Source: an uncultured Clostridia bacterium (GTDB lineage: Bacteria; Bacillota; Clostridia; Oscillospirales; Ruminococcaceae). Taken from it: a stretch of 64,000 nt of DNA. The stretch is taken from the NCBI GenBank assembly GCA_944387915.1, contig CALXGT010000003.1:1-64000 (forward strand), in the 5' to 3' direction. Position 1 is the stretch's first letter, and every line of letters begins with the position of its first letter. Shown piece by piece: positions 36,500-55,195 of this stretch. The notes beneath the pieces are model-generated. The model did no database searches. It worked only from the letters and a program-made list of their open reading frames with translations, and was not told the DNA's origin. A program made the translations under genes and the position numbers.

Positions 36500-36543
36500 T
36501 TTATCCACATTTTTTTCTCTTTTTTCATTCTTAAAACAGCGTA

Positions 36544-52224: not shown

Positions 52225-52435
52225 CTGTTTTTTTGTAAATTCAATAGACCCCCTAAAAAATTCTCTTTATTTTTCTCTATTTTCTTTTCCCCTTTTTGAT
52301 GTGGAAAACTTGAAATTGATTTTCCTTTATGCTATATTTATAAAGGTATGTTTTTTTCTTATAGGATTGTTTTCCTTTTTTCCTTCCGGCGAGGGTATTG
52401 GAAAAAAGGCTTTTTATATTTAAGGAGGACTCGCT
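52225..52435 (+). promoter_or_regulatory. dnaA upstream region and promoter
   Basis: T-rich. TTGAAA (52310-52315), 17 bases, TATATT (52333-52338) is the likely dnaA promoter. TGTGGAAAA (52300-52308) is one base off the reverse DnaA-box consensus and could be an autoregulatory box. No perfect TTATCCACA occurs here, unlike Bacillus. Confidence 0.65.
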
Positions 52436-53818
52436 TTGAATTCTTTTATGGAAGTACTGGAGTATGTGAAGGAATATTTTCTCGAAAAGGTTCGCAACAA
52501 TGAACTTTCCCAAACCGCTTACAACTGCTGGATCAAAGACTTGGAACCCATCCGGCTGGAAAACGATACGGCGGTGGTGGCCGTTCGGACCAATTTTCAC
52601 AAAAAAATCCTACTAAGCCAGTACGAAAGCCGTTTATTGGAGGCTTTTGAGGCGGTTTTGGGCTTCCCCGTAAAGGTGGAGATCATCGCCACCGAAAATC
52701 TCTCGGGAGAAGAGGAAGAGGATATTTTAAAGCCCACTTACGCCCCGAAAGAAGCCAGCGCCGAAGACACCTCTTTCCAAAGCGGCGACTATATCGACGA
52801 CCGGTACGAATACACCTTCCAAAACTTTGTCGTGGGAAGCAAAAATGAATTTGCTTACACCGCCTGTAAATCGGTAGCGACCTCGTCCACCGTCAAAACC
52901 TACAACCCTTTATTTATCTACGGCCCCTCTGGATTGGGCAAAACCCATCTGCTGATGGCGATTAAACATGAGGTTCAGCAGCGAAACCCGGAAATGAACA
53001 TTGTTTACACCAACAGCGAAACCTTTACCAACGATTTGATTTATGCCCTCGGAAACAAAGGCATCGACGATTTCCACTTAAAATATCGCCACGCCGACTT
53101 CTTTTTGATCGACGATATTCAGTTCCTTTCCGGCAAGGAGCGTTCCCAGGAGGAATTTTTCCACACCTTTAACGAGCTGTACCTTTCGGGAAAGCAGATC
53201 GTCATTACCTCCGACCGGCCTCCAAAAGATATTAACATCATTGAGGAACGGTTAAAAAACCGGTTCGAATCGGGTCTTTTGGCGGACATTTCCTATCCGG
53301 ACACCGAAACGCGAATCGCCATTATTAAGCGGAAAGCAGAATTTTTACAGATCGACATTCCCGACGACATTGTCAATTTTATGGCCAACAAGCTGAAACG
53401 GAACATTCGTCAGCTGGAAGGGGCGGTCAAGAAGATGAAGGTATACAAGCTTCTTTCCGGCTCCAATCCCAATATGAGCGTAGCGCAAAATGTCATTAAG
53501 GAGATCCTAAACGAAAACCAGCCGGTGGACATCACTATCGACAAAATTATCGAAGAAGTGGCGAAGACCTACAATGTCTCCGCCGAAGACATCCGTTCCA
53601 AAAAGCGGACAGGCCCCGTTTCCGCCGCGAGACAGGCGGCGATTTATGTCACCAGAGAGATCACCCAGATCTCCATGAAACAGATCGGCCAGGAATTTGG
53701 AAACCGGGACCACACCACCATTGTCTATGCGCTAAAGCAGGTGGAACAACTGATGAAGGTCAACCCCCATGAAAAAGGGATTATCGAGGATATTATCAAA
53801 AACATCAAGAACCGATAA
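52436..53818 (+). CDS. dnaA: Replication initiator DnaA
   Basis: 460 residues. Domain I (residues 1-80) for interactions, variable domain II to about 120, AAA+ domain III with YTFQNFVVGSKNEFAY, Walker A GPSGLGKTH, Walker B FLIDDIQF, and domain IV with HTH motif RDHTTIVYALK. It binds DnaA boxes at oriC and melts the origin. Starts at TTG 52436 with AAGGAGG 6 bases upstream; ATG 52448 is a less likely alternative. Confidence 0.97.
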   Translation: MNSFMEVLEYVKEYFLEKVRNNELSQTAYNCWIKDLEPIRLENDTAVVAVRTNFHKKILLSQYESRLLEAFEAVLGFPVKVEIIATENLSGEEEEDILKPTYAPKEASAEDTSFQSGDYIDDRYEYTFQNFVVGSKNEFAYTACKSVATSSTVKTYNPLFIYGPSGLGKTHLLMAIKHEVQQRNPEMNIVYTNSETFTNDLIYALGNKGIDDFHLKYRHADFFLIDDIQFLSGKERSQEEFFHTFNELYLSGKQIVITSDRPPKDINIIEERLKNRFESGLLADISYPDTETRIAIIKRKAEFLQIDIPDDIVNFMANKLKRNIRQLEGAVKKMKVYKLLSGSNPNMSVAQNVIKEILNENQPVDITIDKIIEEVAKTYNVSAEDIRSKKRTGPVSAARQAAIYVTREITQISMKQIGQEFGNRDHTTIVYALKQVEQLMKVNPHEKGIIEDIIKNIKNR

Positions 53819-54079
53819 CTTTCCCCAAAGTTTTCCTTTTTCTTTCCCCTGCTCCCTCCTTTTTCCCTGCGCGTTTTTTCCTTTTTTTCTCTTTTCCCCT
53901 TTTCCCTATTTTTTTCCTTCCCTTTTCCAAAAGGAAAAAAGAGGGAAAAATGCCGTTGTTTTCGGAAAAAGAAGGGCTGTTTCCACTTTTTAGAACCCCC
54001 TATTACTACTACTAAAATAATACTATTCTATTCTCTATATATAGTATGCATCATAAAATTAGAAGAAAGGATCAGCGGT
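53819..54079. other. oriC (dnaA-dnaN intergenic) with DnaA-trio-like element
   Basis: A pyrimidine-rich tract (53820-53928) includes a long inverted repeat (53911-53950). Then a degenerate DnaA box GTTTCCACT (53979-53987) is followed by CCCCC (53996-54000) and TATTACTACTACTAAAATAAT (from 54001, described here in pieces: TAT-TAC-TAC-TAC-TAA). Box, GC-run, trio repeats and AT-rich DNA reproduce the basal unwinding arrangement known from Bacillus oriC. DnaA boxes are weak to the eye. Confidence 0.7.
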
Positions 54080-55195
54080 ATGAAATTTGTCTGTGACAAA
54101 TCGGTATTATCCGAAGCGGTAAACAGCGTCTCTCCCGCAGTGGCGCAAAAATCTACCCTTATGGCGTTGGAATGTATTTTACTTCGCTTAAAAGCCGATT
54201 CTCTTACGGTAATCGGTTACAATTTGGAGCTGGGAATCACCAAAGAGGTTTCGGTGCGGGGCCTGGAAGAAGGGGAAGTGATCGTCAACGCGAGACTGTT
54301 TGGCGAAATCATCAATCGCATGCCCCAAGGAGAGCTTCAATTTACCATTGACGAAAAACTGCTTATGGTCATCAAAGGTGGCGGAGCCCAATTTACCATT
54401 TTGGGGATGGGTGCGGAAGAATATCCGGAGATCCCCTCGTTAAACGAAGAAGATACCCTTTCCCTTTCGGTTCCCTTGCTTCGGGATATGATTTCCCAAA
54501 CTCTTTTCGCCGTTTCCCAGGACACCGCCACTCCGGTACTTACCGGCGTTTTATTTGAAACCAAAGAGCAAAACCTCTATTTGGTTTCCGTCGACGGAAG
54601 AAGGCTCGCTTTGCGAAAAGAACCGGTGGAGGTTACAAAGGATATTCGATTTATTGTTCCCGGAAAGACATTGTCCGAGCTTTTAAAGCTCACCTCCCGT
54701 TTTAACGACGAGGAGGAAAAGATTCTTGTGCGGGCGGGAAAGCGGCATATCGCTTTTGAATGCTGCGGCTATCGGATGATTTCCAGACTTTTGGAGGGGG
54801 ATTTTATCGATTACGAAAACGCCATCCCCAAAAGCTATACCGTTTCGGTGACTCTCAACACCAGAGAGATGATCGAAAGCATCAACCGGGCGTCCATTTT
54901 AATCAGCGACAAGGTAAAAAATCCCATTCGCACCGTTTTTGAGGACAACATGGCGCATCTCTCCTGTGAAACATCCATGGGAAAGGTCAGCGATTCTCTC
55001 CCGGTGGAGATGGAGGGAGGCCCGTTAAAAATCGGTTATAACAACCGGTATATGACCGACGCCCTCAAAGCGACACAACAGGATAAGGTCATTTTACAGA
55101 TGTCCTCTCCGGTTTCCCCCATTCGCATCGTTCCCCTGGAGGGAGACGACTTTATTTTTCTGGTTATGCCCATGAGGTTGAAAGACGATGATTAA
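54080..55195 (+). CDS. dnaN: DNA polymerase III sliding clamp (beta)
   Basis: 371 residues, three-domain clamp. N-terminus MKFVCDKSVLSEAVNSVSPAV, SVDGRRLALRKEPVE in domain 2, and the C-terminal VIPLEGDDFIFLVMPMRL tail resemble the family's conserved end (PVR/MPMRL). Encircles DNA and tethers the polymerase. AGAAGAAAGG precedes ATG. The end overlaps yaaA by 8 bases. Confidence 0.96.
   Translation: MKFVCDKSVLSEAVNSVSPAVAQKSTLMALECILLRLKADSLTVIGYNLELGITKEVSVRGLEEGEVIVNARLFGEIINRMPQGELQFTIDEKLLMVIKGGGAQFTILGMGAEEYPEIPSLNEEDTLSLSVPLLRDMISQTLFAVSQDTATPVLTGVLFETKEQNLYLVSVDGRRLALRKEPVEVTKDIRFIVPGKTLSELLKLTSRFNDEEEKILVRAGKRHIAFECCGYRMISRLLEGDFIDYENAIPKSYTVSVTLNTREMIESINRASILISDKVKNPIRTVFEDNMAHLSCETSMGKVSDSLPVEMEGGPLKIGYNNRYMTDALKATQQDKVILQMSSPVSPIRIVPLEGDDFIFLVMPMRLKDDD

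Follow-up and report, generated by a model that had tools for sequence, protein, structure and literature searches.

Does the intergenic region between dnaA and dnaN in this uncultured Clostridia genome contain the unwinding site of a chromosome origin, and if so, how would the initiator recognise it among such weak DnaA boxes? The earlier note on the window (the whole stretch of 64,000 nucleotides that was analysed) had described a degenerate DnaA box, a GC-run and DnaA-trios, in the order known from the Bacillus origin, and had offered a shifted DnaA specificity or fewer boxes as explanations for the missing consensus boxes.

The locus and its gene neighbourhood

The genome that holds the window comprises 2.03 Mb in 78 contigs and is 99% complete; the window lies on contig C3. 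Its genes run rnpA and rpmH (both minus strand), dnaA, dnaN, an S4-type ORF, recF and gyrB, with rpmH and the S4-type ORF assigned by reading. This gene order is that of the usual Firmicute origin neighbourhood. The features that frame the two gaps flanking dnaA are:

52310..52338, plus strand: dnaA promoter-like site, TTGAAA-17-TATATT, with TG ahead of the -10
52436..53818, plus strand: dnaA, initiator DnaA, 460 aa (TIGR00362, 472 bits)
54080..55195, plus strand: dnaN, sliding clamp (TIGR00663, 270 bits)

A perfect sigma-70 consensus promoter directed towards rpmH (TTGACA-17-TATAAT) is also present at 52224-52196 on the minus strand. Judged by DnaA, the nearest relatives in the named collection are uncultured Clostridia, Ruminococcus, Anaerotruncus, Acutalibacter and Faecalibacterium, all at 59% identity or less. 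The closest genomes are G001 (97%), the one congener available for comparison, G094 (71%), the G105 group (mostly 64–67%) and the G043 group (59–64%).

A basal unwinding system in the dnaA-dnaN gap

Four elements follow one another in the second half of the gap:

53979..53987, plus strand: BUS-proximal DnaA box GTTTCCACT, assigned by register and conservation
53988..53999, plus strand: 12-bp spacer TTTTAGAACCCC, with a C-run at its end
54000..54014, plus strand: five DnaA-trios, CTA-TTA-CTA-CTA-CTA on the top strand, unique in the genome and kept in G001
54015..54060, plus strand: putative DNA unwinding element, AT-rich (83%), downstream of the trios

Because box and trios are kept in the congener and stand in the Bacilli register, we conclude that this block is a real basal unwinding system (BUS) as that term is used in PMC6669920 and PMC8287927, and hence an element of a known kind. 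With a probability of about 0.88, it is the BUS of the chromosome origin, where DnaA at the proximal box would load onto the trios and open the AT-rich DNA.

The bases of the box, GC-run and trios are as first reported, but box and C-run are not adjacent: the 8 nt of TTTTAGAA (53988-53995) separate the proximal box from CCCCC at 53996-54000, after which the strand continues with TATTACTACTACTAAAATAAT. The trio frame first given, TAT-TAC-TAC, was off by one base. The correct frame begins at the last C of the C-run, and the bottom strand accordingly reads 3'-GAT-AAT-GAT-GAT-GAT. Where a BUS calls for at least three DnaA-trios (3'-NAN-5', GAT preferred beside the box), five are found here, the first of them 3'-GAT. 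B. subtilis DnaA prefers the 3'-GA trio form (PMC10721633). The trio string has a single copy in the 2.03-Mb genome, even with up to one mismatch allowed, and a five-trio run arises in 5e-5 of composition shuffles of the dnaA-dnaN gap. Just past the trios, in the AT-rich stretch, lies CTATTCTATTCT (54023-54034). The string (C)TATTCTATTCT recurs past the trios in G001 (L003), L004 and L010, and this stretch is possibly a dnaN -10 region or an extension of the unwinding element.

Taken by itself, GTTTCCACT means little. It is 3 mismatches from the E. coli motif TTATCCACA and 2 from TTTTCCACA, and the window holds 1292 sites 3 mismatches from TTATCCACA. Its weight comes from a fixed register and from conservation, not from the sequence match alone. 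A match to TTTTCCACA with at most 2 mismatches appeared within 16 bp upstream of the trio in 8% of shuffles, and in the exact register in 1%. The 12 bp from box to first trio place it in the same register as TTATCCACA in Bacilli and TTTTCCACA in the family. Its extended form GTTTCCACTTTTT (53979-53991) is invariant in the congener; the window and G001 share GTTTCCACTTTTT and CCCCCTATTACTACTACTAA without a difference, whereas the gap sequence between and around these two differs. The proximal box reads GTTTCCACTTTT in both of these genomes and TTCTTCACTTTT in G094. A tandem second, weaker DnaA box between the first box and the trios is the most frequent BUS arrangement, though not an obligatory one. 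At that place (the box 7 position) the window has TTTTAGAAC, which is not box-like, and G001 reads TTTTCCCTC.

If the block is an origin element it should recur in homologous gaps, as the earlier note had pointed out, and the congener, most family members and Bacilli do indeed carry the box/spacer/trio block between dnaA and dnaN. Across 23 Bacilli/Clostridium loci the module consists of TTATCCACA, 12 bp and CTA repeats (exact box in 21, one mismatch in 2). A trio run (score ≥8) was found in 46 of the 54 family loci, and trios are kept as trios in family members whose gap sequence is otherwise unrelated. The gap of one AT-rich family member (L006) carries repeated TTTTCAACA, and the trios lie a mere 4 bp away from one of these copies.

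The published BUS rule accepts a sole DnaA box at most 16 bp upstream of the trios with a mismatch limit of 2, and the accompanying program allows a lineage-specific box motif for species with divergent boxes (PMC8287927). We applied the rule with the trio position fixed by our own scoring. With the default motif TTATCCACA the window fails, having 3 mismatches at spacer 12, and with the lineage motif TTTTCCACA it passes, with 2 mismatches at the same spacer; under the E. coli motif and a limit of 2, the window's origin is therefore not scored as a BUS. The rule passes 32/54 family loci with TTATCCACA versus 44/54 with TTTTCCACA, a concrete reason for missed origins, and 23/23 Bacilli/Clostridium loci with either motif.

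DnaA boxes across the lineage

Exact box matches were counted in the dnaA-dnaN gap together with the 420 bp that precede dnaA (shuffled expectations, 0.2–1.5). The 19 Bacilli/Clostridium loci contained 88 copies of TTATCCACA, 6 of TTTTCCACA and 3 of TTTTCAACA; the corresponding numbers for the 30 family loci were 2, 46 (0.9 expected) and 41 (1.5 expected). The family origin box is TTTTC[C/A]ACA rather than TTATCCACA, and the missing TTATCCACA in the window's origin is partly lineage-wide. A looser family PWM for ranking loci was abandoned, as it scored pyrimidine-rich strings too generously. The open-licence literature that we searched yielded no description of this lineage-specific box consensus and no paper on the DnaA boxes of Ruminococcaceae or Faecalibacterium.

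Further box drift in the window's genus

The following sites and tract lie in the two gaps that flank dnaA:

52285..52296, plus strand: candidate DnaA box of degenerate sequence, TTTTCCCCTTTT (G001: TTTTCCACTTTT), upstream of dnaA
52300..52308, minus strand: DnaA box TTTTCCACA, close by on the 5' side of the dnaA -35; no other box in the gaps matches the consensus as well
53816..53930, plus strand: polypyrimidine tract, 90% C+T (112 nt), the most extreme in the window
53892..53903, plus strand: candidate DnaA box of degenerate sequence, TTTTCCCCTTTT, located distally in the dnaA-dnaN gap and conserved in G001

Neither the rpmH-dnaA nor the dnaA-dnaN gap contains a perfect TTATCCACA; the window's single perfect copy stands at 36501-36509, as had been noted. 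That survey had, however, missed TTTTCCACA at 52300-52308, the sole exact TTTTCCACA in the window's origin region; G001 has none. The same site reads TGTGGAAAAC in G094, in members of the G105 group, in L147 and in L032, and TGGGGAAAAC (also written TTTTCCCCA) in G001. At gap offset 75, TTTTCCCCTTTT is found in the window and G001 and TTTTTCACTTTT in G094. Instead of the cluster of consensus boxes by which an oriC is judged, each gap holds about one box with at most 1 mismatch, a density of one per 300 bp, which the best places in the rest of the window equal or exceed. The suggestion of fewer boxes gains support, most relatives having more consensus boxes than the window's genus, but a few other family members are as poor: L016 and L019 have none in the gap. 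The two sites within 52285-52308 form a head-to-head pair 5' of the dnaA -35. L113, L136 and L032 show a similar arrangement, and the pair looks like dnaA autoregulation.

Sites of the form TTTYCMCTTTT, a pattern chosen after inspecting the sequences, occur three times in each of the origin regions of the window, G001 and G094 (0.04–0.15 expected), and three such sites were reached in 0/300 dinucleotide shuffles. Pyrimidine-rich DNA favours the pattern, and the polypyrimidine tract accounts in part for the form TTTTCCCC. The tract itself (53816-53930) may be the remnant of a same-strand TTTTCCnC box array. As a genome-wide regulatory motif the pattern was discarded, being not clearly enriched (73 versus 58 for the reversed control). 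In the origin regions, these sites point to a T-tailed box with a relaxed position 7. Box drift together with few strong boxes in the window's genus is, on the sequences compared, well supported, and by the same comparison this genus has drifted further than the family, to candidate TTTYC[C/A]CTTTT-like sites. It is conceivable, and we put it forward tentatively, that a 12-bp DnaA box TTTYC[C/A]CTTTT, unlike any described, evolved in this genus and its nearest relative through a two-step shift while the trios stayed constant. The steps would have been from TTATCCACA to TTTTC[CA]ACA at the level of order or family and then to the T-tailed, position-7-relaxed form, a path we regard as possible rather than probable.

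The initiator protein

The window's DnaA is full length with all domains present, and its closest solved relative is 8btg, the B. subtilis BUS structure. The trio-contact residues of B. subtilis are N187, I190, I193, R202 and E228, R202 contacting the trio guanine (PMC10721633). The window has N, I, L, H and E at these positions, four of them conserved or conservative; the R202 position corresponds to residue 214, a His. His at this position is the rule in the family and is seen in other relatives too, with mostly Arg in Bacilli and others. Most family members carry it although their trios stay 3'-GAT rich.

Domain IV keeps R399, R407, D433, H434 and T435 and has Lys at 423 (E. coli residue numbers, set from the RDHTT motif). 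At residue 423, Pro occurs in 40 loci whose origins are of the TTATC[CA]ACA type and in 0 of the TTTTC[CA]ACA type; another residue stands there in 75 T-type loci and in 6 of the A-type. This apparent association with box type is strong by count, but on the DnaA tree the box changes no more than about six times, giving 2 supported pairs that are independent, and we treat it as a lead only. A DnaA residue change as the cause of the box shift was set aside: shared descent is enough to account for the association, which therefore points to no particular residue.

Has DnaA specificity shifted?

The shift in DnaA specificity first suggested gains support, in the sequences, as changed site usage, with the lineage box TTTTC[CA]ACA; a change of binding is putative. 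The DnaA of the window's genus would bind the drifted sites, either at low affinity or with altered preference, and cooperativity of the trio filament may compensate for the drifted boxes.

The alternative that survives best concerns only this question of specificity and leaves the BUS itself untouched. DnaA may have its ordinary specificity and simply few weak boxes, GTTTCCACT being a decayed low-affinity site, tolerated since trio assembly or a high DnaA level compensates, and the TTTTCCCCTTTT sites being unbound. The retained domain IV residues listed above agree with this account, as does the single consensus-like box per 300 bp in each gap, and B. subtilis can manage with only its two proximal boxes if DnaA is abundant (PMC6669920). 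We give this account a substantial chance, if somewhat short of an even one: TTTYCMCTTTT recurs non-randomly at matching positions of three genomes, and the box consensus has changed throughout the lineage, both of which speak for a moved site preference.

Position of the origin

The GC-skew minimum, named in the earlier note as a check on the origin's position, falls at the trios: for the cumulative skew of the 64-kb window it is at 54035, in the AT-rich stretch and no more than 25 bp from the trio. Skew remains positive up to the contig end at 75 kb; with the genome in 78 contigs, the minimum refers to the window and the rest of contig C3. In the single-contig relative G350 the skew flips at its dnaA from -0.21 to +0.20, a noisy sampling that supports a local flip at dnaA only. 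An active origin elsewhere, with the dnaA-dnaN block as a relic or as a regulator of dnaA/dnaN only, would suit a consensus-box density at dnaA that is not above background, and a 78-contig genome in which skew is not traceable genome-wide. It is nevertheless very improbable, given the skew minimum beside the trio, the conservation of the block in the congener and across the family, and the flip at dnaA in G350. The only other close box pair seen, C12:514-549, was dropped as a competing box cluster, since it consists of two boxes and sits without a skew flip. Least probable of all is that the trio-like string arose by chance or belongs to a dnaN promoter, for although a weak promoter-like match (TTTAGA-18-TAAAAT, 53989-54018) overlaps it, the string is unique in the genome, its five-trio run is very rare in shuffled gaps, and its trios are conserved where the other gap sequence is unrelated.

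Proposed opening of the origin

For the block read as the BUS of the chromosome origin, the following course is envisaged. DnaA-ATP would dock at the proximal box GTTTCCACTTTTT, aided by the few weak distal boxes, and would be guided from there onto the bottom strand of the five trios. An ATP-DnaA filament would then grow 3'-to-5', capturing the trio bases, and the AT-rich DNA would open towards dnaN. Strand opening from box and trios has been reconstituted for B. subtilis (PMC6669920, PMC10721633), and helicase loading on the trio-complementary strand has been described (PMC10201434). Such loading is plausible here as well, a DnaD-type protein being present: the genome encodes a DnaB_2/DnaD-domain protein, which matches the Bacillus-type initiation pathway.

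Comparison with known origins

The unwinding element itself is ordinary, conserved and already known; the box drift is real and fairly unusual. The trio module stays constant while the double-stranded boxes drift, which supports the view of the trios as the core that bacterial origins conserve. Where boxes have drifted, origin finders that rely on them, and BUS scans, can miss an origin, and standard origin-finding rules would overlook such boxes. The lineage also provides a natural series in which the joint change of DnaA domain IV and its box could be studied.

The closest known system is the BUS of B. subtilis oriC (incC), box 6/7 plus trios, which the window resembles in its dnaA-dnaN position and box orientation, in the 5'-CTA repeats with AT-rich DNA after them, in the 12-bp spacer with a C-rich end, as in the aligned Bacilli loci, and in the mostly conserved trio-contact residues of DnaA. 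It differs in that its proximal box is GTTTCCACT and not TTATCCACA, that a second proximal box is not clear, that consensus boxes are few at distal sites, and that His stands at the R202 position. With cyanobacterial origins the family consensus shares the box TTTTCCACA, with T at position 3, which has been named as the species-specific box of Cyanobacteria (PMC10225481). In contrast to these, A at position 6 (TTTTCAACA) is in use in the family as well, and positions 7-9 have drifted further in the window's genus. Thermotoga maritima oriC, with its AAACCTACCACC boxes, likewise has a lineage-specific DnaA-box consensus, whereas the window box is still TTnTCCAC-like and the domain IV recognition residues are largely canonical.
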